From contig NZ_CP019701.2 in assembly GCF_002005205.3 (NCBI RefSeq), positions 1,798,001 through 1,862,000 of the forward strand: a stretch of DNA of 64,000 nucleotides. Direction: 5' to 3'. Below the pieces are notes generated by a model, which ran no database searches, was not told where the DNA came from, and saw only the letters and a list, made by a program, of their open reading frames with translations. The position numbers were made by a program, and so were the translations under genes. Below, in pieces: positions 33,901-46,684 of the stretch. The first letter of the stretch is position 1; the number at the start of each line of letters is the position of its first letter. This DNA is from Rhizobium rhizogenes. GTDB taxonomy: Bacteria; Pseudomonadota; Alphaproteobacteria; Rhizobiales; Rhizobiaceae.

Positions 33901-34617
33901 TCAGGCGGCTTTACGGGTAAAAAGACGCGCGGGTGGCGTACCGAGCCGCAGCAGGCGTTTCGGCAGCAGGCCAAGCACTTCGCCCGCGAATGCTCTGGCA
34001 TTCTCGACCGCCTTGTCGATATTGCTCACCTTGGTCTTATCGAGACAGAGAAGCGTGCCGCCAAGATCGAAAATATCGCGATAGGCGGCTCTCTCAACGA
34101 TCGGGGTGTTGAGAACCGAGACATTTTTCTCGGCCAGCAGCATCTTGACCAGCAGCAGCGAACGCGTCGCCACCATGGCGTTGACCCGCGTCAGCACGAT
34201 GGAATGAGCAATCTCCTTGCCCATCTTGCGGTTCAGAAATTCGATATGATCCAGAACCTCGGCGGCCCCGCGCGCATCCATGGCGCAGCCCTGAACCGGG
34301 ATCAGCACATGATCGGAAATGCCGAGAGCCATGGTCAGAAGCGGGGTCTTCGCTCCCGGCAGATCGATGATGAAACAGTCGGTGCTGGTTTTATTCTCGC
34401 GAATATGGCCCTCAAGCGATGCCATCGTCACATGCGAAATCACCGAAAGATTTTCGATATCACCTGATAATTCGTGCCAGCGGGAAATCCACAATTGCGG
34501 ATCGGCATCCAGAACCGTCACGCGGTGACCGCTGCGGGCCAGTTCGGTTGCCAGAAGCAGCACGGCGGTGGTTTTTCCGGCACCGCCCTTGGTATTGGCG
34601 AAAGTGATGACTGACAT
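33901..34617 (-). CDS. Orphan ParA-family ATPase
   Basis: 238-residue Walker-type ATPase starting MSVITFANTKGGAGKTTAVL, the deviant Walker A of ParA/MinD with its signature lysine; DADPQLWISRW follows, and the switch region CFIIDLPGAKTPLL. No ParB gene or parS-like repeats are adjacent, and size is that of short ParA proteins. Such orphans position cellular cargoes (for example VirC1, chemotaxis or polysaccharide systems). Sequence order KGGAGKTTA..LDAD..RW also resembles VirC1, but the cargo cannot be named. Confidence 0.88.
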   Translation of the reverse strand: MSVITFANTKGGAGKTTAVLLLATELARSGHRVTVLDADPQLWISRWHELSGDIENLSVISHVTMASLEGHIRENKTSTDCFIIDLPGAKTPLLTMALGISDHVLIPVQGCAMDARGAAEVLDHIEFLNRKMGKEIAHSIVLTRVNAMVATRSLLLVKMLLAEKNVSVLNTPIVERAAYRDIFDLGGTLLCLDKTKVSNIDKAVENARAFAGEVLGLLPKRLLRLGTPPARLFTRKAA

Positions 34618-34906: not shown

Positions 34907-36052
34907 TTAAAAGCAAGCCTCAAAAAGCGCCTTGGTATTTTCCAGCGTCATCGGCACCGGATTACCACTGCAGCTCGGATCCTTGATCGCTTCCGCCGCC
35001 AGTTCGTCGATACGATCCGGCTTGATGCCCATGGCGGTCAGGTTTTCCGGTACGCCGAGTTCCTTGCGAAGTTCCAGCACGTAATCATAAAAACCGTCGA
35101 AACCGCCGGAGATGCCGAGATAGGCGGCCGCGCGGGCAATCTTGTCTTCAATGGCCGGGCGGTTGAAGCGCAGCACGGCCGGCATGACGACGGCATTGGT
35201 CATGCCGTGATGGGTGTTGTAAACCGCGCCGATCGGATGCGAGAGCGAGTGAATGGCACCGAGACCCTTCTGGAAGGCCACCGCCCCCATCGCTGCCGCT
35301 GCCATCATATTGGTGCGCGCTTCAATATCCGTGCCGTCCCTATAGGCGCGCGGCAGGAATTCCTTGACGAGACGTAAGCCCTCCAGCGCCACGCCGGCGC
35401 TCATCGGGTGATAGAAGGGCGAGGAATAGGCTTCAAGGCAATGGGCAAAGGCATCCATGCCCGTACCGGCCGTGATGACCTTCGGCATGCCGACCGTCAG
35501 TTCCGGATCGCAGATGACGACGCCGGGCAACAGCTTCGGATGGAAGATGATCTTCTTCACATGGGTCTGCGAATTGGTGATGACGCTGGCGCGGCCGACT
35601 TCCGAACCCGTACCAGCGGTTGTCGGAACGGCGACAATGGGCGCGATCCTGGAAGCATCCGCCCGGGTCCACCAGTCGCCGATATCTTCGAAATCCCAGA
35701 CCGGACGTGTCTGCCCGGCCATGAAGGCAATGGTCTTGCCGAGATCGAGGCCAGAGCCGCCGCCAAAGGCGACGACACCGTCATGACCGCCATCGCGATA
35801 GGCTTTCACGCCGGCTTCCATGTTGATCTCGTTGGGGTTCGGATCGACCTCGGCGAAGATCGCCCGGCCGAGGCCTGCCTCTTCCAGCACGTCGAGCGCA
35901 TGCGCGGTGATCGCCATATTGGCAAGGCCGCGATCCGTCACGAGCAGCGGCTTCTTGATGCCGAGCGTCTTGCAGGCTTCCGCCAGTTCCTTGATCCGGC
36001 CACGGCCAAGCTTGACGGCGGTGGGGTAGCTCCAGTTGGCGACGATATTCAT
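34907..36052 (-). CDS. Iron-containing alcohol dehydrogenase
   Basis: Group III (iron-dependent) alcohol dehydrogenase, 381 residues. Start at 36052 (MNIVANWSYPTAVKLGRG) overlaps the upstream aldehyde dehydrogenase stop (ATGA); the longer frame runs over that gene. Motifs: GGGSGLDLGKTIA and PTTAGTGSEVGRASVI for NAD binding, and the metal-binding HxxxH pattern in GLGAIHSLSHPIGAVYNTHHG. The metal-ligand Asp/His set is complete by eye. Last gene of the predicted amino-alcohol operon; would oxidise a gamma-glutamyl-alcohol to the aldehyde. Confidence 0.92.
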   Translation of the reverse strand: MNIVANWSYPTAVKLGRGRIKELAEACKTLGIKKPLLVTDRGLANMAITAHALDVLEEAGLGRAIFAEVDPNPNEINMEAGVKAYRDGGHDGVVAFGGGSGLDLGKTIAFMAGQTRPVWDFEDIGDWWTRADASRIAPIVAVPTTAGTGSEVGRASVITNSQTHVKKIIFHPKLLPGVVICDPELTVGMPKVITAGTGMDAFAHCLEAYSSPFYHPMSAGVALEGLRLVKEFLPRAYRDGTDIEARTNMMAAAAMGAVAFQKGLGAIHSLSHPIGAVYNTHHGMTNAVVMPAVLRFNRPAIEDKIARAAAYLGISGGFDGFYDYVLELRKELGVPENLTAMGIKPDRIDELAAEAIKDPSCSGNPVPMTLENTKALFEACF

Positions 36053-37437
36053 TTCGTGACTTTCTTCAGATGGTAGGATTTCGGGCGGGTCAGGTTCTGG
36101 AAACCAAGGACGGAAAGCGAACCGCCACGGCCGGTTTCCTTCACACCGGTCCAGCAAAGCGCCGGGTCGAGATAATCGGCGCGGTTCATGAACACGGTTC
36201 CGGTCTCGATTTCGCGGCCGATCCTCGCGGCCCGTGTCGCATCCTGCGTCCAGAGCGAAGCGGTTAGGCCGTATTTGCTGTCATTCATCAGCGCGATGGC
36301 TTCATCGTCGTTCTTGACCTTCATGATGCCGATGGCGGGACCGAAAGTCTCTTCGGTCATGAATTCCATGGAATGATCGACATTGACGAGGATCTGCGGC
36401 GCGACATAAGCACTCTCGCCATCATCGGCCGGGAAAAGCTTCTGATCGACCAGCGCCTTGGCGCCCTTGGCAACGGCGTCGGCAATCTGCGCCCGCACCA
36501 CCTTGGCAAACCGCTTGTTGGCCATCGGCCCGAGCGTGGTTTCCTGCTCAAGCGGATTGCCGAGCTTGTAGTTGGACACCCACGCCACGGACTTCTCGAC
36601 GAATTCGTCATAGAGGTTTTCATTGACGTAGATGCGCTCGATACCGCAGCAGCATTGCCCGGAATTATAGGTGCCGCCATCCATCAGCGTATCGACGGCG
36701 GCGTCGAGATCGGCATCCTCCATCACATAACCGGGGTCCTTGCCGCCGAGTTCAAGCCCGAGGCCGGTGAAGGTGCCGGCAGCGGCGCGTTCGATGGCAC
36801 GGCCGCCTTCCACCGAACCGGTGAAATTGACGAAGTTGAACAGGCCCTCGGAAATCAGCGCAGAAGTCGTGCCATGGTCGAGGAAGACGTTGATGAAGAC
36901 ATCGTCAGGCACCCCAGCCTCGACGAAAGCCCGCACCATGCGCTCGCCGACCAGCAACGTCTGCGCCGCATGTTTGATGACCACCGTGTTGCCGGCCATC
37001 AAAGCGGGCGCGACGGTGTTGATTGCCGTCATGTAAGGATAGTTCCACGGCGCGATGACGAAGACCACGCCATGCGCCTCGCGCTCGATGCGGCGTTCGA
37101 AATTGCCGCTTTCCTCGATGACGAGCGGCGCCAGCGCATCGGCGGCGATGGAGGCGACATAATTGGAGCGCTCGTTGAAGCCCTTGAACTCGCCGCCATA
37201 ACGCACCGGACGGCCCATCATATGCGCCAGTTCCGGCACAACCTCCGCCACCATTTCGTTGAGGCGCGCCACACCCTTCAGAACCAGCTGAACGCGGTCC
37301 TCAAGCGGGCGTCGGGCCCAGTCTCTTTGCGCCTTGCGCGCTCTCGAAACGGCGGCCCGCGCCGCCTCCAGCGACATCGCCTCCCGCTCGGCATAAACCG
37401 AGCCGTCGATGGGCGAGATATTCTGGATCATGGTCAT
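36049..37437 (-). CDS. NAD(P)-dependent aldehyde dehydrogenase
   Basis: 462-residue aldehyde dehydrogenase. Conserved elements: APWNYPYMTAINTVAPALMAGN, NFTGSVEGGR (nucleotide site), LELGGKDPGYV with the general-base Glu, catalytic Cys in NSGQCCCGIERIYV, and EETFGPAIGIM. Three cysteines in a row at the active site are unusual. In the operon it follows the glutamine-synthetase-like gene by 18 nt and overlaps the alcohol dehydrogenase, fitting oxidation of an aldehyde intermediate to the acid. Confidence 0.93.
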   Translation of the reverse strand: MTMIQNISPIDGSVYAEREAMSLEAARAAVSRARKAQRDWARRPLEDRVQLVLKGVARLNEMVAEVVPELAHMMGRPVRYGGEFKGFNERSNYVASIAADALAPLVIEESGNFERRIEREAHGVVFVIAPWNYPYMTAINTVAPALMAGNTVVIKHAAQTLLVGERMVRAFVEAGVPDDVFINVFLDHGTTSALISEGLFNFVNFTGSVEGGRAIERAAAGTFTGLGLELGGKDPGYVMEDADLDAAVDTLMDGGTYNSGQCCCGIERIYVNENLYDEFVEKSVAWVSNYKLGNPLEQETTLGPMANKRFAKVVRAQIADAVAKGAKALVDQKLFPADDGESAYVAPQILVNVDHSMEFMTEETFGPAIGIMKVKNDDEAIALMNDSKYGLTASLWTQDATRAARIGREIETGTVFMNRADYLDPALCWTGVKETGRGGSLSVLGFQNLTRPKSYHLKKVTK

Positions 37438-37455
37438 GATGTTTTCCCGTAATGA

Positions 37456-38823
37456 TTAGGCTCGTTCGAAACCGCGCGCCACTTCCCAGTCGGTCACGCG
37501 GCGGTCGTATTCTTCCTGTTCCCACCGTCCGGCATGGACGTAATGATCGATCACATCGTCGCCGAAAGCGTTGCGCAGCATTTTCGATCCGTCCAGAAAG
37601 GCAGTGGCGTCACGCAGGGTCTTGGGTATCTCGCGCACATCCTTGCCGCCATAGGCGTCACCGACAAAAGCGGGCTCAAGTTCAAGTTTATTTTCGATGC
37701 CGTCAATGCCTGCCGCAAGCAAAGCCGCCATGGCGAGATAGGGATTGAGATCGGATCCGCCGACGCGGCATTCGATGCGGATGCCCTTCGTGCCCTCGCC
37801 GCACAGGCGATATCCGGCCGTGCGGTTGTCGAGGCTCCAGATCGCCTTGGTGGGCGCAAACGTGCCGGCCATGAACCGCTTGTAGGAATTGATATAGGGC
37901 GCCAGGAAATAGGTTATCTCGCTGGCATGGGCCAGAAGCCCGGCAACATAATGCCGCATCAGCTCCGACATGCCATGCTTGGCATCCTTGTCGAGGAAGG
38001 CCGGCGTCTTGCCGTCGAGGCTCCACAGCGACTGGTGAATATGCGAGGAACTGCCGGCGGCATTGTAGTTCCACTTGGCAAGGAAGGTCACCGCCTTGCC
38101 TTTCGACCAGGCGATCTCCTTGGTGGCGTTCTTGATGATGGCGTGCCGGTCGGCCATGGTCAGCGCATCGGCATAACGCACGTTGATCTCCGCCTGACCG
38201 GCGGACGCTTCGCCCTTGGAGTTTTCGACCGGAATGCCGGCACCCTGAAGGCCCTTGCGCAGCGCCCGCATGACATCCTCTTCCTTGGTCGTCTGGAAGA
38301 TATGGTAATCCTCATTATAACCGCTGGCGAGGTTCAGCCCCTTGTAACCGCTGGCGCGCGCCGCATCGAAGGTCTGGTCGAACAGGAAAAATTCCAGTTC
38401 GGTCGCCATATAGGCCTTGAGCCCCATGGCCTCCAGCCGCGCCACCTGTTTTTTCAACAACGCGCGGGGCGAATGCGGCACCTCTTCGTGGGTGTGATGA
38501 TCGAGTACATCACAGAGCACCAGCGCCGTGCCTTCCAGCCACGGCACCCGTCGCAGCGTCGAAAGGTCGGGTTTCAGCACATAGTCGCCATAGCCCTTTT
38601 CCCAGCTGGACGATTTGTAGCCGGGAACGGTTTCCATCTCCATGTCGGTGGCAAGCACGTAATTGCAGCTATGGGTTTCCTCATAGGCGCTTTCGACGAA
38701 GAACTCGGCCTGGAACCGCTTGCCCATCAGACGCCCCTGCATGTCGACAAGGCAGGCCAGAACCGTGTCGATGCGCCCTTCGGCGACATCCATCTTGAGC
38801 GCGTCGAATGTGTAGCTCGTCAT
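37456..38823 (-). CDS. Glutamine-synthetase-like gamma-glutamyl-amine synthetase
   Basis: 455-residue member of the glutamine synthetase superfamily, divergent from GlnA. The ATP/metal glutamates ATELEFFLFD and GEASAGQAEIN, the NAAGSSSHIHQSL histidine motif and the KRFMAGTFAPTKAIWSLDNRTAGYR arginine region are all present (quoted in parts), so it is probably active. Related enzymes ligate glutamate to amines, for example PuuA (putrescine) and Streptomyces GlnA4 (ethanolamine). The adjacent ethanolamine-type permease favours ethanolamine or another amino-alcohol. Good ribosome binding site AAAGGGA. Confidence 0.88.
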   Translation of the reverse strand: MTSYTFDALKMDVAEGRIDTVLACLVDMQGRLMGKRFQAEFFVESAYEETHSCNYVLATDMEMETVPGYKSSSWEKGYGDYVLKPDLSTLRRVPWLEGTALVLCDVLDHHTHEEVPHSPRALLKKQVARLEAMGLKAYMATELEFFLFDQTFDAARASGYKGLNLASGYNEDYHIFQTTKEEDVMRALRKGLQGAGIPVENSKGEASAGQAEINVRYADALTMADRHAIIKNATKEIAWSKGKAVTFLAKWNYNAAGSSSHIHQSLWSLDGKTPAFLDKDAKHGMSELMRHYVAGLLAHASEITYFLAPYINSYKRFMAGTFAPTKAIWSLDNRTAGYRLCGEGTKGIRIECRVGGSDLNPYLAMAALLAAGIDGIENKLELEPAFVGDAYGGKDVREIPKTLRDATAFLDGSKMLRNAFGDDVIDHYVHAGRWEQEEYDRRVTDWEVARGFERA

Positions 38824-38889
38824 TTTGTCCGTTCCCTTTTTGTGTGGCGATCGGGCGGCCGGCAGACGGCCGCCCGTTTCGTTTGAGCA

Positions 38890-40404
38890 TCAGGCCTTTG
38901 CAGCCGCCGCTGCCATGGCAGCCTGCTTGTGCTCCAGCGCGAATTCCTCTTCCGGCGACAGGATGAGGCGGTGGCGTCCGACAAAGGCGAAATAGGCGAT
39001 CGCCACGGCAAACCAGACGGCGACCCAGAGAACGCCCTTGGTGAAGTTCGGATCCTGGATCTGGTAAAGCAGCGTGACGATGGCGATGATGATCGTCAGC
39101 ACCGCACCCGGAATGCCGAAGGGCGAACGGAACGGCCGCTCGATATGCGGCAGGTTCTTGCGGAGCAGGATGAAGGAAACCGCCTGCATGATGTAGGAGA
39201 ACATGGCGCCGAACACGGCCATGTTCAAAAGCACGCTGCCGATGATGCTGCCGCCCTCTTCCGCACCCAGCGAGAACCAGATGACGAGCATGACCGCGAG
39301 GCCGACGACAGCGCCGGCGATATTGGCAACGAAGGGTGTGCGGTATTTCGAGTGGGTGATCGACAGCACGGTCGGGAAATAACCCGCACGCGACAGCGAA
39401 TAGATCTGCCGGCCCTGCGCATAAAGGATCGTATGGAAGCTGGCGATCAGGCCGGTCAATGCGACAAGGCCAAGCAGCACGACACCGCCATCGCCATAGA
39501 TAGCCTTGAAACCATCCAGCAGCGGCTCAAGCGAGGAACCGAGATGGAAGGCGCCGACACCCGGCAGCGACGGGTTGAGCAGCACGATCATGAAGGCGGA
39601 TACCATCAGCGTGATGACGCCGAGGATGATGCCCTTCGGCATGTCGCGTTTCGGATCGACCGATTCTTCGGCGGCCAGCGGCAATTGCTCGATGGCGAGG
39701 AACAGCCAGACCGCGAAAGGCAGCGTGGCGAGAACACCTGAAAAGCCGAAGGGGAAGAAGGAACCGCCGCCTTCCGGCAGCTCCACCGCCTTGCCATCAG
39801 GGCCAACACCGATATTCAGCGCGTAACGCGAAAAATCGATATTCGGGATGGCGCTGATCCAGAAGAACACCAGAACGCCGAGCGAAATCAGCGTGATGAT
39901 CAGGGTGACCTTGAAGGAAAGCTCCAGCCCGAAGACGTTGAGGGCAAGGAAGATCGCATAGAAGGCTATCCACACAAAGGGTGAATAGGCGGGATCAAGC
40001 CCGAGGATGGAATTCACGTAGGCGGTGATGAAGGTGACGACGACCGCCGGCGTCAACACATATTCGACATTCTCGCAAAGTCCGGTGACGAAGCCGCCCC
40101 ACGGGCCCATGGCCGTGCGGGCGAAGGAATAGGCAGCACCGGTGTGCGGAAGCGCCGGGCTCATTTCCGCGATCGAAAATGTCAGCCCGAGATACATGAT
40201 GGCGATGATGATGCCCGCCACCAGCATGCCGCCCCAGCCGCCGGTGGAAAAGCCGAAATTCCATCCGGAAAAATGCCCTGATATGACCGCACCGACGCCG
40301 AGCGACCAGAGCGACCACACCCCCGCATAACGGGAAAGTCCGCGTTTTTCGAAATAGGATGCATCAGCCTTCTTATAGCTGACGCCTGACGATGAACTGT
40401 CCAT
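38890..40404 (-). CDS. APC-family permease, ethanolamine-type
   Basis: 504-residue amino acid/amine permease with about 12 membrane segments. Start at 40404 (MDSSSSGVSYKKADA) follows GGAGAGAAGG; the frame opens ten codons earlier. N-terminal VWSLWSLGVGAVISGHFSGW, with GW-N motif and GGAYSFARTAMGPWGGF-like region (TGAAYSFARTAMGPWGG), resembles the ethanolamine permease subfamily (EutP/Eat). It would import the substrate of the catabolic genes downstream. A 66-nt gap separates it from the glutamine-synthetase-like gene. Confidence 0.85.
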   Translation of the reverse strand: MDSSSSGVSYKKADASYFEKRGLSRYAGVWSLWSLGVGAVISGHFSGWNFGFSTGGWGGMLVAGIIIAIMYLGLTFSIAEMSPALPHTGAAYSFARTAMGPWGGFVTGLCENVEYVLTPAVVVTFITAYVNSILGLDPAYSPFVWIAFYAIFLALNVFGLELSFKVTLIITLISLGVLVFFWISAIPNIDFSRYALNIGVGPDGKAVELPEGGGSFFPFGFSGVLATLPFAVWLFLAIEQLPLAAEESVDPKRDMPKGIILGVITLMVSAFMIVLLNPSLPGVGAFHLGSSLEPLLDGFKAIYGDGGVVLLGLVALTGLIASFHTILYAQGRQIYSLSRAGYFPTVLSITHSKYRTPFVANIAGAVVGLAVMLVIWFSLGAEEGGSIIGSVLLNMAVFGAMFSYIMQAVSFILLRKNLPHIERPFRSPFGIPGAVLTIIIAIVTLLYQIQDPNFTKGVLWVAVWFAVAIAYFAFVGRHRLILSPEEEFALEHKQAAMAAAAAKA

Positions 40405-40574
40405 GCCCTTCTCTCCTGAATAAGAAAAAAACAAGCCAGTCAGCCGTTATTGGCCGATTGTGCCCCAGTTTTCAGCACCTGCGGAAGGTTTCCGCGCTGT
40501 GCCGCACGCACTTGCTGTTCCCTTGCCGCTTCATGCCTTTCCGGCTTTCCCTGAATGTCGGCAGTCTCGTTTGG

Positions 40575-40609
40575 TGGCCGGCCCCGGTGTTTTCACCATC
40601 GGCCGGCCA
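40575..40609 (-). repeat. GGCCGGCC hairpin between hydrolase and permease genes
   Basis: TGGCCGGCC (40575-40583) and GGCCGGCCA (40601-40609) enclose an inner GGTG-TTTT-CACC hairpin. It lies in the 213-bp gap inside the predicted operon, without a T-run; possibly a processing or attenuation point that sets different levels of hydrolase and permease mRNA. Confidence 0.55.
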
Positions 40610-40617
40610 TAGCTCCC

Positions 40618-41391
40618 TCACTCATCGATCGATGAGAGTGCCTTCCCCATAAGTTCGTGGAGGAAACCGGCGATGGCCGCCTGCTCTCCTTCATTGGTGA
40701 TCAGATCGTTGCGGATTTCGATCATCACGTTCAAAAGCCCGCCCGGCAGCGCATGCAGCCTCAGCGTATGCGTCACGCCGTCTTCCGGACCATAGGGGTC
40801 GTTGCGTTTGACCGTGAGCGCCGACCCTTCGGCGCCCGCCAGCATCGCATCGGCCAGGCGGCTGTCGCTGTCATGCAGGATGCCGATCTGAACCTGCCGG
40901 AACTGCCCGTGATAGACCGGCGTGAAACTGTGGATGGTCACCACCACCACCCTGCGGCCCGCAGCCTGACGCCCGGCGATGATTTCGCTCACCCGATCAT
41001 GAAACGGCACGTAAAGCGCCGAAGTACGGGCAAAACGCTCCGCTTCGGAAAGGTCGAGATTGCCGGGAATATTGTAGATTTCGCTTTTCACCGGCATGGC
41101 GGAAGGCGATTCGGGCGGCCGGTTGCAATCATAGACGAGCCGCGAGAACCGCTGGTAGACGAGCGTGGCGTCAAGGCTTTTCGACAGCAGCCGCGCAACG
41201 GCAAGGGCACCCGGGTCCCAGGCCGCATGGCTGGAAAGCACATCGGGCGAAAGACCGAGCGTACCGAATTTTTCCGGAATGGTGGCAGAGGCATGCTCAC
41301 AGACGAGAAGGACGTCGCCCTTCGCCGCGGCGTTCTCGACACCGACCGCCTGCCCTTCCGCCTGCGTGAAAAAATCCGAACGCACCGTCAT
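40618..41391 (-). CDS. N-formylglutamate amidohydrolase-family protein
   Basis: 257-residue zinc hydrolase of the N-formylglutamate amidohydrolase (HutG-like) family. Start at 41391 (MTVRSDFFTQ); the frame is open 12 codons earlier. Motifs: LLVCEHASATIPEKFGTLGLS with the metal-binding E-H, HAAWDPGALAVARLLS, YDCNRPPESPSAMP, TIHSFTPVYHG and IEIRNDLI. No histidine-degradation genes are adjacent, so in this operon it may hydrolyse another N-acylated or gamma-glutamyl glutamate derivative. First gene on the minus strand next to the divergent RpiR regulator. Confidence 0.9.
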   Translation of the reverse strand: MTVRSDFFTQAEGQAVGVENAAAKGDVLLVCEHASATIPEKFGTLGLSPDVLSSHAAWDPGALAVARLLSKSLDATLVYQRFSRLVYDCNRPPESPSAMPVKSEIYNIPGNLDLSEAERFARTSALYVPFHDRVSEIIAGRQAAGRRVVVVTIHSFTPVYHGQFRQVQIGILHDSDSRLADAMLAGAEGSALTVKRNDPYGPEDGVTHTLRLHALPGGLLNVMIEIRNDLITNEGEQAAIAGFLHELMGKALSSIDE

Positions 41392-41473
41392 GAAAGCACC
41401 CCGCCGGGGAACCCCGCTCCCCGCCAATGACGAAAAGAATTCTTCACATTATTGCGAGTGTCAAATGGAATTT

Positions 41474-41489
41474 TGAAATTTTCTCTTCA
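41474..41489. promoter_or_regulatory. Candidate RpiR operator
   Basis: TGAAATTTTCTCTTCA: TGAA/TTCA ends with an AT-rich centre, similar in style to reported RpiR-family sites, located in the 177-bp divergent region between the hydrolase and regulator genes. Weak symmetry, so tentative. Confidence 0.4.
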
Positions 41490-41568
41490 TTTTTCCCATT
41501 GACTCGATAGCTGGCGCAGATGTTTATTTTAGCCGATAGACCGGCATAAAGACCGGAAGGGGAAAGAT

Positions 41569-42447
41569 TTGCGCAGCACGACGGCGACCGTGTCGGATGT
41601 CATCCATGCCCATTACGACGCGCTGACCCGTTCGGAAAGACGGCTGGCGGAGAGCCTGCTTGGCAACTACCCCGTATCCGGTCTCGGCAGCATCACCACC
41701 ATCGCTGAAAATGCCGGCGTTTCGACGCCGACGGTGGCGCGCATGGTGCAGAAGCTCGGTTACAAGGGCTATCCGGAATTCCAGGCGCATCTGCATCAGG
41801 AACTGGAGGCGACGATCTCCGGCCCGGTCGCCAAGCACGACCGCTGGGCGACCAATGCGCCCGGCCTGCACATTCTCAACCGCTTCGCCGATGCCATTAC
41901 CGGCAATCTGCGCGATACGCTGAGCGATCTCGACACCGCCGTCTTCGACAATGCCGCAGCGCTGCTTTCCGACCGCAAGCGCAGCATCTATTTCGTCGGC
42001 GGACGCATCACCGGGGCGATCGCCGAATATTTCTTCACCCATATGCAGGTGATCCGCCCGAAAACGACGCTGATGTCATCGAATTCCAGCGCCTGGCCGC
42101 AATATATGCTGAACATGAACGCCGGTGACGTGCTGGTGATCTTCGACATCCGCCGTTACGAGCATGACATGACGACGCTTGCCGAAGTGGCGAGGGCAAA
42201 CGGTGTTGAAATCATCCTCTTCACGGATCAGTGGACCTCACCGGTGGCCCGCCACGCCCTGCACACCTTCCGGGTAAAAATAGAGGCGCCCTCGGCATGG
42301 GATTCCTCCGTCGTGACATTATTCGTCGTCGAGGCGCTGATTGAGGCCGTCCAGAGCGGCACCTGGGATGAAACCAAGGAACGCATGAACGCGCTGGAAG
42401 GCCTGTTCGAACAGACGCGTCTGTTCCGCAGGCCGGACAGAACATGA
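41569..42447 (+). CDS. RpiR-family transcription regulator (HTH + SIS)
   Basis: 292-residue regulator translated from a TTG at 41569 preceded by AAGGGG. An N-terminal RpiR helix-turn-helix (YDALTRSERRLAESLLGNYP..GSITTIAENAGVSTPTVARMVQKLGYKGYPEFQ, in parts) precedes a SIS sugar-phosphate-type ligand domain (about residues 125-260). SIS domains usually sense phosphosugars, but RpiR proteins next to amine catabolism exist. Divergent from the operon starting with the hydrolase gene, which it probably controls. Confidence 0.9.
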   Translation: MRSTTATVSDVIHAHYDALTRSERRLAESLLGNYPVSGLGSITTIAENAGVSTPTVARMVQKLGYKGYPEFQAHLHQELEATISGPVAKHDRWATNAPGLHILNRFADAITGNLRDTLSDLDTAVFDNAAALLSDRKRSIYFVGGRITGAIAEYFFTHMQVIRPKTTLMSSNSSAWPQYMLNMNAGDVLVIFDIRRYEHDMTTLAEVARANGVEIILFTDQWTSPVARHALHTFRVKIEAPSAWDSSVVTLFVVEALIEAVQSGTWDETKERMNALEGLFEQTRLFRRPDRT

Positions 42448-42738: not shown

Positions 42739-43845
42739 GTGATCTCTCACTGCCGCCGACTGCTTGCTACGACCACCGCAATGGTCATTGCCTCCACCGC
42801 GATCGCTGCCGCCGAGCCGAGCGCCGAACTGATCGCTGCCGCCAAGAAGGAAGGCATGCTGACCACCGTTGCGCTGCCGCATGACTGGTGCGGTTACGGC
42901 GACGTCATCGCCGCCTTCAAGGCGAAGTACCCGGAAATCACCGTCAACGAACTGAACCCCGACGCCGGCTCCGCCGACGAAGTGGAAGCAATCAAGGCAA
43001 ACAAGGACAACAAGGGCCCGCAGGCTCCTGACGTCGTCGACGTCGGCCTCGCTTTCGGTCCGCAGATGAAGGCCGAAGGCCTGCTGCAGCCCTACAAGGT
43101 TTCCACCTGGGACGAAATTCCTGACAACGTCAAGGATGCCGACGGTTACTGGTACGGCGACTATTACGGCGTCATGTCGATGTTCGTGAACAAGGACCTC
43201 GTCACCAACGCTCCCAAGGACTGGGCCGACCTGCTGAAGCCGGAATATTCCGGTCAGGTGGCACTCGCAGGCGATCCGCGCGCTTCCAACCAGGCGATCC
43301 TCGGCGTTCTCGCCGCTGGCCTCTCCACCGGTGCGAAATCCGGCAAGGAAGCCGGTGAAGCCGGCCTGAAGTACTTCGCCGACCTCAACAAGGCCGGTAA
43401 CTTCCTGCCTGTTATCGGCAAGGCTGGCACGCTGGCACAGGGCGCAACCCCGATCATCATCGCCTGGGACTATAACGCCCTGTCCTGGAAGAAGACGCTG
43501 AACGACAACCCGCCGACAGAAGTCGTCGTCCCTGAGAAGGGCGTTCTGGCTGGCGTTTACGTTCAGGGCATCTCCGCTTACGCGCCGCACCCGAACGCCG
43601 CCAAGCTGTGGATGGAACATCTCTATTCCGACGACGGTCAGCTCGGCTGGCTGAAGGGCTATTGCCACCCGATCCGCTTCAACGCCATGGTCAAGGCCGG
43701 CAAGGTTCCGCAGGAACTGATCGACAGCCTGCCGCCGGCAGCAGCCTATGAAAAGGCAATCTTCCCGACACTCGAGGAAGTTGACGCCAACAAGGCCGCC
43801 GTCACGGCCGGCTGGGACAGCGTCGTTGGCGCAAACGTGAAGTAA
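42739..43845 (+). CDS. ABC importer, periplasmic substrate-binding protein
   Basis: Iron(III)/2-aminoethylphosphonate/polyamine-type solute binding protein (SBP type 1/6), 368 residues. GTG start behind GAGGAG; signal peptide MISHCRRLLATTTAMVIAST cut after IAAA. The product contains ELIAAAKKEGMLTTVALPHDWCGYGDVIAAF and PDVVDVGLAFGPQMKAEGLL, typical of the group. Substrate not determined: candidates are iron, AEP, thiamine-like or opine-type compounds. Followed by a terminator and then the two permeases and ATPase of the same importer. Confidence 0.9.
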   Translation: MISHCRRLLATTTAMVIASTAIAAAEPSAELIAAAKKEGMLTTVALPHDWCGYGDVIAAFKAKYPEITVNELNPDAGSADEVEAIKANKDNKGPQAPDVVDVGLAFGPQMKAEGLLQPYKVSTWDEIPDNVKDADGYWYGDYYGVMSMFVNKDLVTNAPKDWADLLKPEYSGQVALAGDPRASNQAILGVLAAGLSTGAKSGKEAGEAGLKYFADLNKAGNFLPVIGKAGTLAQGATPIIIAWDYNALSWKKTLNDNPPTEVVVPEKGVLAGVYVQGISAYAPHPNAAKLWMEHLYSDDGQLGWLKGYCHPIRFNAMVKAGKVPQELIDSLPPAAAYEKAIFPTLEEVDANKAAVTAGWDSVVGANVK

Positions 43846-43857
43846 ACTGTTGAAAAC

Positions 43858-43895
43858 GCACCCCGGCCGATCAAAAAGCCGGGGTGCTTCTTTTA
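43858..43895 (+). terminator. Terminator/attenuator inside ABC operon
   Basis: Stem GCACCCCGGC (43858-43867) / GCCGGGGTGC (43878-43887) with a 10-nt loop followed by TTCTTTTATAATT. It lies between the binding-protein and permease genes, so binding protein would be made in excess. Confidence 0.85.
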
Positions 43896-43948
43896 TAATT
43901 AAACCTTAAGACACAGACCGTTTTAAAAACGGCGTTTGGGGACAAGGC

Positions 43949-44833
43949 ATGCCATCAACCAACACCGGCGGACCATCCGACGCGGGCAGAAAGTTGCCGT
44001 TGCACTGGATAGGCGTCGTACCTTTCGCCGTCTTTGTTCTGCTGTTTCTGATCATGCCGACGATGAAGATCGTGATCGGCGCTTTCCAGCGTCCTGATGG
44101 CAGCTTCACGCTGGAAAACATCACCGGGCTCTTCACCTCCTCCATCCTCGCGGCCTACTGGATTTCGATCAAGATCAGCCTCGCCTCGGCGGCTCTGGGC
44201 TGCCTGATCGGTTTTGCCGTGGCCGCCGCCGTCGTGCTGGGCGGCCTGCCGCAGCGCATTCGCGGACCGCTTCTGACCTTTTCGGGCGTCGCCTCGCAAT
44301 TTGCCGGCGTGCCGCTGGCCTTCGCCTTCATCGCCACGCTCGGCCCGGTCGGCCTGCTCACCGTCTTCCTGAAGACGCAGGTTGGCATCGATCTTCGGCT
44401 CCTCGGCTTCAACATCCTGTCCTTCTGGGGCCTGACGGTCACCTATCTGTTCTTCCAGATTCCCCTGATGATCCTCATCATCACGCCGGCACTGGACGGG
44501 CTGAAGCGCGAATGGCGCGAGGCTGCGGAAATTCTCGGCGCCACCGGCCTGCAATACTGGCGCATGGTGGCCTTTCCCATCCTGCTGCCATCGCTGCTCG
44601 GCACCATGTCGCTGCTCTTCGCCAACGCCTTCGGCGCCGTGGCAACCGCAATCGCGCTCACCGGCTCCTCGCTCAACATCGTGCCGATCCTGCTCTTCGC
44701 GCAGATCCGCGGCGACGTTCTCGGCAATCCGCATCTTGGTTACGCACTCGCCTTCGGCATGATCGTCGTTACCGGCATCGCCAATGCGCTTTATATCTGG
44801 CTGCGCGCCCGCAGCGAAAGGTGGCTGAAATGA
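43949..44833 (+). CDS. ABC importer permease 1
   Basis: 294-residue inner-membrane permease with six predicted spans and the EAA loop REAAEILGATGLQYWRMVAFPILLPSL. N-terminal span GVVPFAVFVLLFLIMPTMKIV. Partner of the adjacent permease and ATPase; overlaps the next start by 4 nt (ATGA). Confidence 0.92.
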   Translation: MPSTNTGGPSDAGRKLPLHWIGVVPFAVFVLLFLIMPTMKIVIGAFQRPDGSFTLENITGLFTSSILAAYWISIKISLASAALGCLIGFAVAAAVVLGGLPQRIRGPLLTFSGVASQFAGVPLAFAFIATLGPVGLLTVFLKTQVGIDLRLLGFNILSFWGLTVTYLFFQIPLMILIITPALDGLKREWREAAEILGATGLQYWRMVAFPILLPSLLGTMSLLFANAFGAVATAIALTGSSLNIVPILLFAQIRGDVLGNPHLGYALAFGMIVVTGIANALYIWLRARSERWLK

Positions 44834-45612
44834 AGCGGTTCTTCGCCTGGGGCGCGCTGATCTTCGGCCTCCTGTATTTCGCCCTGCCGCTGATCGGCAT
44901 GACCAATTTCTCGCTGAAAATGCGGCGCGGCGAATATTCCTTCGACGCCTATGGCAAGGTGCTGACCGATCCGCGTTTCCAGGAAACCTTCAGCTATTCG
45001 GTGGTGATGGCGCTGTTCACCATCGTTTTCGGGGTCCTGCTGGTCGTGCCCACCGCCTATTGGGTACGGCTGAAACTGCCGGGCCTGCGGCCCTATATCG
45101 AATTCATCACGCTTTTGCCGCTCGTCATTCCGGCCATCGTCATCGTCTTCGGTTATATCAGGCTTTACAACACCTCCAGCTGGCTGCCGCTGACCGGCAC
45201 GACCTCCGGCACCAACCTGCTCTTGATGTTCGGTTATGCCACGCTCGCTTTGCCTTATATGTACCGTGCCGTCGATACGGGCCTCAGAACCATCGATGTC
45301 TCGACGCTGACGGAAGCCGCCCAAAGCCTCGGGGCCGGCTGGACGACCATCCTGTCGCGCATCATCCTGCCCAATGTTCTGGTCGCCGTGCTGTCAGGCG
45401 CGTTCTTGACCTTCGCCATCGTCATCGGTGAATTCACCATGGCGGCCCTTTTGAACCGCCCGGCCTTTGGCCCCTACATGCAGCTGCTCGGCGCCAACCG
45501 CGCCTATGAACCGGCCGCACTTGCCGTGATTTCCTTCGGCATCACCTGGGGTTGCCTGGGTCTGATCCAACTCGTTTCACGCTACCAGAAGGGCGCGCCT
45601 CCCAAGGCCTGA
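44830..45612 (+). CDS. ABC importer permease 2
   Basis: 260-residue permease, start at 44830 in the ATGA overlap; the longer frame from 44512 lies over permease 1 and is not real. The EAA loop reads TEAAQSLGAGWTTILSRIILPNVLVAV. Forms a heterodimeric channel with permease 1. Confidence 0.92.
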   Translation: MKRFFAWGALIFGLLYFALPLIGMTNFSLKMRRGEYSFDAYGKVLTDPRFQETFSYSVVMALFTIVFGVLLVVPTAYWVRLKLPGLRPYIEFITLLPLVIPAIVIVFGYIRLYNTSSWLPLTGTTSGTNLLLMFGYATLALPYMYRAVDTGLRTIDVSTLTEAAQSLGAGWTTILSRIILPNVLVAVLSGAFLTFAIVIGEFTMAALLNRPAFGPYMQLLGANRAYEPAALAVISFGITWGCLGLIQLVSRYQKGAPPKA

Positions 45613-45625
45613 GGACAATATTTTC

Positions 45626-46684
45626 ATGAGCTTTTTGACACTTAGCAACATCAAGAAATCCTTCGGCTCCGTGCAGGTCGTGCATGATTTCAACATGGCC
45701 ATCGAAAAGGGCGAATTCGTCTCCTTCCTCGGGCCGTCGGGCTGCGGCAAGACCACCGTGCTGCGCATGATCGCCGGTTTCGAAATCCCGAGCGGCGGAT
45801 CGATCGTCATCAATGGCAAGGACCAGACGGCGCTGCGGCCCAACCAGCGCAATATCGGCATGGTGTTCCAGGCCTATGCGCTGTTCCCGAACATGAATGT
45901 CTATGAAAACGTCGCCTTCGGCCTGAAAGTCGCCGGCAAGCCGAAAGCCGAGATCGACGCCCGCGTGAAGGAAATGCTCCAGCTCATCCATCTGGAACAT
46001 CTGGCCGACCGTTATCCCTATCAGATGTCGGGCGGCCAGCAGCAGCGCGTGGCGCTGGCCCGCGCTCTGGCCCCGAAGCCGGAAGTACTTTTGCTCGACG
46101 AGCCGCTCTCCGCGCTCGACGCCAAGATCCGCGTATCGCTGCGCGAGGAAATCCGCCAGATCCAGCAAAAGCTCGGCATCACCACCATTTTCGTGACCCA
46201 CGATCAGGAAGAGGCCCTGTCGATTTCCGACCGCATCGTCGTGATGAATTCCGGCCGCGCCGACCAGATCGGCTCGCCCTTCGATATCTACAACAAGCCC
46301 GCAACCCGTTTCGTCGCCTCCTTCGTCGGTACGCTCAACCTTATCGATGCCACCGTCGTCGATTCCTCGTCCAACACCATCCGTGTCGGTGAGCAGCAGA
46401 TCACCCTGCACAAGCCGGTCGATGCAGCAAACGGCGAAAAACTCACCCTCGCGCTTCGCCCGGAAGCGGGTTCGCTTGGCAGCGACGCGAAAGGCGATGT
46501 CGCCATTTCCGGCACCGTCACCTCCAGCCAGTTCCTCGGTTCCGTCATCCGCACCCGTCTCGATCTCGGTGGTTCGACCCTGTCTTTCGACATGTTCAAT
46601 GATCCCGGCACCGCGCCGCCTGCCCTTGGTGAGCAGGTGACGCTCAAATTCGCAGCGGGCGATCTTATGGTGATCAAGGATTAA
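45626..46684 (+). CDS. ABC importer ATPase
   Basis: 352-residue ATPase of the PotA/FbpC type: Walker A LGPSGCGKTTVLR, Q-loop, signature SGGQQQRVALARAL, Walker B LLLDEPLSALD, H-loop VTHDQEEAL, and a C-terminal TOBE-like regulatory domain (about 260-345). Thirteen bases after permease 2. This completes the importer. PotA-type ATPases couple polyamine, iron or phosphonate systems. Confidence 0.94.
   Translation: MSFLTLSNIKKSFGSVQVVHDFNMAIEKGEFVSFLGPSGCGKTTVLRMIAGFEIPSGGSIVINGKDQTALRPNQRNIGMVFQAYALFPNMNVYENVAFGLKVAGKPKAEIDARVKEMLQLIHLEHLADRYPYQMSGGQQQRVALARALAPKPEVLLLDEPLSALDAKIRVSLREEIRQIQQKLGITTIFVTHDQEEALSISDRIVVMNSGRADQIGSPFDIYNKPATRFVASFVGTLNLIDATVVDSSSNTIRVGEQQITLHKPVDAANGEKLTLALRPEAGSLGSDAKGDVAISGTVTSSQFLGSVIRTRLDLGGSTLSFDMFNDPGTAPPALGEQVTLKFAAGDLMVIKD

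Follow-up and report, generated by a model that had tools for sequence, protein, structure and literature searches.

Genes labelled 'glutamine synthetase' and 'N-formylglutamate amidohydrolase' in annotations raise the question of what they accomplish when they stand together with a permease and two dehydrogenases, as they do in a 64,000-nucleotide stretch of Rhizobium rhizogenes (contig NZ_CP019701.2, positions 1,798,001 to 1,862,000 of the forward strand; hereafter the window, with positions counted from its first letter). The cluster comprises five minus-strand genes at 34907-41391 and a divergent RpiR gene, and all six, which a first-pass annotation made from the letters alone had named as such, are present and intact with the expected domains. 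We consider it very probable that the cluster encodes, in its Agrobacterium form, the known pathway that degrades ethanolamine by gamma-glutamylation, which would give the two annotated genes a place in that pathway.

The enzymatic steps, the substrate and the regulation are read across from published relatives, and the pathway would run as follows. Ethanolamine would enter through the predicted importer, an APC-family permease (38890-40404; AA_permease, TIGR00908-like), and probably also through the adjacent ABC transporter. The glutamine synthetase (GS)-like ligase (37456-38823; PF00120, 339.6 bits), a predicted gamma-glutamylethanolamide synthetase, would use ATP to ligate ethanolamine to glutamate, and the iron alcohol dehydrogenase (FeADH; 34907-36052; PF00465, 162.8 bits), the predicted gamma-glutamylethanolamide dehydrogenase, would oxidise the alcohol of the resulting gamma-glutamylethanolamide to an aldehyde. 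The aldehyde dehydrogenase (ALDH; 36049-37437; PF00171, 387 bits) is predicted to convert this gamma-glutamyl-aldehyde to gamma-glutamylglycine, and a metallohydrolase of the formylglutamate amidohydrolase (FGase) family (40618-41391; PF05013, 148.6 bits), the predicted gamma-glutamylglycine amidohydrolase, would release glutamate and glycine. The RpiR-family regulator (41569-42447, plus strand; PF01418 and PF01380) would regulate the cluster genes. The genes are spaced as in an operon, with 213 bp between hydrolase and permease, 66 bp between permease and ligase, 18 bp between ligase and ALDH and a 4-bp overlap of ALDH and FeADH; the most likely start of the permease is the ATG at 40404, preceded by the ribosome-binding site AGGAGA, and not the TTG at 40434. 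The first-pass annotation had proposed this same path, and it is the best reading and very probably right, its families and steps being in print.

The pathway has already been described, and PMC10132767 includes Agrobacterium in this. The passages of that paper on Phaeobacter sp. MED193 describe a single cluster (MED193_10021-10056) with RpiR, a gamma-glutamylglycine amidohydrolase, the transporter EtoVWX, an ethanolamine gamma-glutamylase and two dehydrogenases, the proposed steps being the same as in the window; the amidohydrolase, EtoX, the glutamylase and both dehydrogenases are raised on phosphorylethanolamine, and ethanolamine is a ligand of the Phaeobacter binding protein. In the window the RpiR gene adjoins the hydrolase gene, as MED193_10021/10026 do in Phaeobacter. 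The two systems differ in uptake, as the Phaeobacter cluster has the TRAP transporter EtoVWX and the window an APC permease, and the ABC transporter is absent from the Phaeobacter genes given in the figure legend of PMC10132767. PMC6529630 (2019) proposed that an enzyme of the formylglutamate amidohydrolase family cleaves gamma-glutamylglycine, and Table 2 of PMC9397018 (2022) lists PF00120, PF00465, PF00171 and PF05013 for the C. salexigens pathway, all four of which occur together in the window cluster. The role of the hydrolase, put forward by the first-pass annotation as a new proposal, is therefore not novel, since these two sources, and PMC10132767 for the amidohydrolase step, already hold it. 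The Streptomyces coelicolor GlnA4 cluster (SCO1610-SCO1615, PMC6529630) likewise begins with a gamma-glutamylethanolamide synthetase and ends with a proposed FGase-family step; it differs in that the legend of Fig. 2 predicts a short-chain dehydrogenase for the alcohol step, and the relevant passages name no RpiR. A further counterpart is the pathway of A. tumefaciens C58 and C. salexigens (Vetting et al. 2015, as cited in PMC10132767 and PMC9397018), which PMC10132767 reports as demonstrated in C58. Atu2144 of C58 is a full-length match to the window hydrolase, C. salexigens is listed with the same four Pfam families, and the window cluster is probably a direct orthologue.

The grouping of these genes is conserved well beyond close relatives. 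A sample of 299 genomes of the phylum (ligase threshold E<=1e-120; surroundings of the ligase covered over up to 20 kb) contains the ligase in 31, the window's own genome included, with 63-86% identity in the 30 others. Near the ligase in these 30 distant loci lie FeADH (29), ALDH (27), the hydrolase (23) and RpiR (22), a recurrence far above chance; the substrate-binding protein (SBP) of the ABC transporter lies there in 12. Among 151 genomes of the family, the ligase is found in 110, the hydrolase (E<=1e-40) in 102, the SBP in 85 and EutB, of the EutBC ammonia-lyase, in 27.

The ligase itself finds its closest solved chains in 11zs (683 bits) and 5dm3 (657 bits), the third-best scoring 180; we take 5dm3, labelled simply 'L-glutamine synthetase' in the search result, to be the C. 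salexigens enzyme. In an alignment with GlnA of the same genome, the ligase retains the E-x-EFF, NSYKR, NR(S/T)A..R and E-x-R motifs. FDGSS, the loop bearing the ammonium-site residues of true GS, has no aligned counterpart in the window ligase or in 29 of 29 orthologues (29 of 30 were used, L073 being omitted for its over-long open reading frame, ORF). A plain glutamine synthetase was thus rejected on the unaligned FDGSS and on a TIGR00653 score of 264.1 against a cut-off of 429.15 bits; the genome holds six GS-family matches in all. Gamma-glutamylputrescine synthetase was also rejected, at 205.2 bits (NF045547). That match of 205 bits is what would speak for a Puu-like polyamine gamma-glutamylation pathway acting on putrescine or a related diamine, but the cut-off of the model is 650 bits, the permease is nearest to ethanolamine permeases, and the FeADH chain requires an alcohol, which putrescine does not have, making such a pathway very unlikely. 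In FeADH, the expected metal ligands D200, H204, H268 and H281 are invariant in 29 of 29 orthologues, and in ALDH the expected catalytic residues, E229 of ELGGK and C263/C264 of GQCC, are invariant in 27 of 27.

The hydrolase aligns over 257 of 257 residues with PDB 2odf, which is Atu2144, deposited under the title 'Hypothetical protein Atu2144'; the ethanolamine pathway suggests a function for this structure. As a member of PF05013, one of seven FGase-family matches in the genome, the protein could be taken for HutG, the N-formylglutamate deformylase of histidine breakdown, lying in the operon by chance, and its H33, R84, D88, N90, R91, H154, N197 and E225 are indeed common to all 21 aligned FGases, true HutGs included. 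However, it scores 21.7 bits to TIGR02017 against a cut-off of 278.75, while two true HutG genes elsewhere in the genome (C2 and C3 carry one each) reach 399 and 389 bits, and its place near the ligase recurs in 23 of the 30 distant loci. A stray HutG is hardly credible on these grounds, and a gamma-glutamylglycine amidohydrolase remains the preferred assignment. The hydrolase diverges faster than its neighbours: across loci L113-L179 except L153 it shows 56-66% identity, and the ligase, ALDH and FeADH, where present, 76-91%.

Which amine enters the pathway is best addressed through the permease and through EutBC. The best NCBIfam match of the permease is the ethanolamine permease model TIGR00908 (356.2 bits; cut-off 381.75). 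At E<=1e-150, 16 of the 151 family genomes have an orthologue of it, nine by the ligase, four by EutB-EutC (G325, G338, G339 and G416, all without the ligase), one by the SBP-ABC genes (G307) and two elsewhere (G334, G367); positions were taken from coordinates, and the EutBC-adjacent and G307 cases were confirmed on the genome DNA. Further, a genome tends to carry either the ligase or EutB rather than the two together, with both in 7 of the 151 genomes, the ligase only in 103, EutB only in 20 and neither in 21 (Fisher p 1.7e-8, related genomes being treated as independent). Ethanolamine is the best-supported substrate because of this exclusion and because permease orthologues adjoin EutBC where the ligase is missing. 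It could be argued that the cluster degrades another amino-alcohol, such as 2-aminopropanol, 3-aminopropanol or serinol, by the same chemistry and takes ethanolamine as a side substrate, given that sequence alone leaves the amine unfixed and that the ligase, FeADH and ALDH would suit other short amino-alcohols. The same two patterns argue against this, as do the response of published relatives to phosphorylethanolamine and the binding of ethanolamine by the Phaeobacter protein, both in the cited passages of PMC10132767, and we regard it as unlikely.

Several observations weigh against ethanolamine glutamylation as the function of the cluster. The window's genome is itself one of the seven exceptions that carry both the ligase and EutBC, and the permease falls short of the TIGR00908 cut-off. 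FDGSS is likewise missing from the other GS-like paralogues of the genome (L003-L005), so its absence indicates 'not a plain glutamine synthetase' rather than 'ethanolamine'. Moreover, in 7 of the 30 distant loci no hydrolase was found close to the ligase, and in 3 no ALDH, and the demonstration in C58 rests, in the relevant part of PMC10132767, on a citation of Vetting et al. 2015.

With the pathway itself described, the leads that remain are the ABC transporter (a modest one), the exclusion between ligase and EutB, and a hydrolase-EutBC cassette on plasmids. The link to the ABC transporter and the exclusion bear on the use of ethanolamine, a phospholipid head group, by soil and plant-associated bacteria. 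The first-pass annotation had reported no Eut ammonia-lyase; this holds for the window, where EutB and EutC were not found, but not for the genome, which has two pairs, EutB being found only on C3 and C2 (C3:188362-189660 and C2:1210804-1212105) and each copy being followed by EutC. The EutBC route probably has the same substrate as the window cluster and shares with it permease orthologues and, within the family, the SBP; it differs in its ammonia-lyase chemistry and in lying outside the window, elsewhere in the genome. On the 202-kb replicon C3, a paralogue of the operon hydrolase (56-58% identity) lies directly upstream of EutB-EutC (L016:5560-8781; L180, L181). EutB, EutC and an N-formylglutamate amidohydrolase are annotated under the match in 12 of the 18 plasmid records matching the C3 stretch, including pRi1724. 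This plasmid and pAoF64/95 both have an amidase, an ABC transporter and a Zn-dependent hydrolase facing the trio. One guess is that the C3 paralogue releases ethanolamine for EutBC from an amide, e.g. gamma-glutamylethanolamide. A 212-aa ORF behind EutC on C3 has no Pfam or NCBIfam match, and pRi1724 has a hypothetical gene there on the other strand; the ORF is therefore not treated as a gene.

The TRAP type named EtoVWX in the passages of PMC10132767 on the ethanolamine cluster is not in the window cluster, where the APC permease takes its place. We compared 80 named loci, the top-scoring 80 among 555 hydrolase matches, a choice that favours close Rhizobiaceae in which the hydrolase is present. 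Next to the hydrolase, 40 of these loci have uptake genes of a second APC type, 27 have the permease type of the window and 12 a TRAP transporter, and the remaining locus (L124) has none of the three. Some core genes are missing from two of the 80, L156 and L177, where the contig and the examined DNA, respectively, are short. One member of the second APC type finds its best match, under the cut-off, in the TIGR00907 amino acid permeases. The type of transporter is a variable part of the pathway cluster and not its core.

The ABC transporter (42739-46684), which adjoins the cluster and was left out of the first-pass annotation, travels with the glutamylation module. Its plus-strand genes encode the SBP (42739-43845; SBP_bac_6, PF13343, 108.2 bits), permease 1 (ORF 43949-44833), permease 2 (44512-45612 as the ORF is listed) and an ATPase (45626-46684; PF00005 and PF08402); permease 2 probably starts near 44815, because its homologues are often about 265 aa. 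The SBP, the three ABC genes, orthologues of both permeases among them, and RpiR are present in 80 of 80 named loci beside the module. Of the 67 family genomes that have both the SBP and the ligase, 62 keep the two within 10 kb of each other (the others being G314, G319, G356, G390 and G413), with the SBP on the 5' side and opposite strand, as in the window, in 27, on the 3' side and same strand in 32, and otherwise in 3. That the SBP stays linked to the ligase in two arrangements argues for function over mere inherited order. It is found in 61 of 103 ligase-only genomes, 16 of 20 EutB-only genomes, 6 of 7 with both and 2 of 21 with neither, a contrast inflated by the small genomes in the last class (G303, G304, G341 and G352; 1.1-2.6 Mb). 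Only two genomes of the 151-genome sample (G339, G374) have the SBP less than about 40 kb from EutB, and its link to EutBC is therefore one of co-occurrence, not adjacency.

These patterns make it possible, though we say so tentatively, that in Rhizobiaceae the ABC transporter is a second dedicated importer of ethanolamine, or of its phosphate or glycerophospho ester, serving whichever route, glutamylation or EutBC, a genome carries; which of these forms it might take up is a suggestion from gene context. If true, it would add a further class of ethanolamine importer to the APC-type permeases and the TRAP system EtoVWX. No ethanolamine ABC transporter in rhizobia was recognised among the open-licence papers listed (15 of 155 for one search). 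Identity as a 2-aminoethylphosphonate ABC transporter was rejected, the SBP scoring 63.9 against 310 (NF011620) and the ATPase 423.2 against 457.7 (TIGR03265). A shared operator motif was sought between the hydrolase-RpiR and RpiR-SBP intergenic stretches of the 80 named loci, where the top shared 10-mers were counted 6 times, giving no sign of a single regulon. A model of the SBP structure, built on a 12-sequence alignment, was poor (mean pLDDT 41.8) and was left unused. In one EutB-only genome (G401, locus L094) the ABC transporter stands together with an APC permease of the second type and a homologue of FeADH (61%); neither ligase nor ALDH accompanies them, and the set looks as if it were a relic of the module. 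Finally, on the far side of the operon, a ParA-like ATPase gene (33901-34617) adjoins the cluster in the window, and such a gene also adjoins FeADH in loci L052, L053 and L055.

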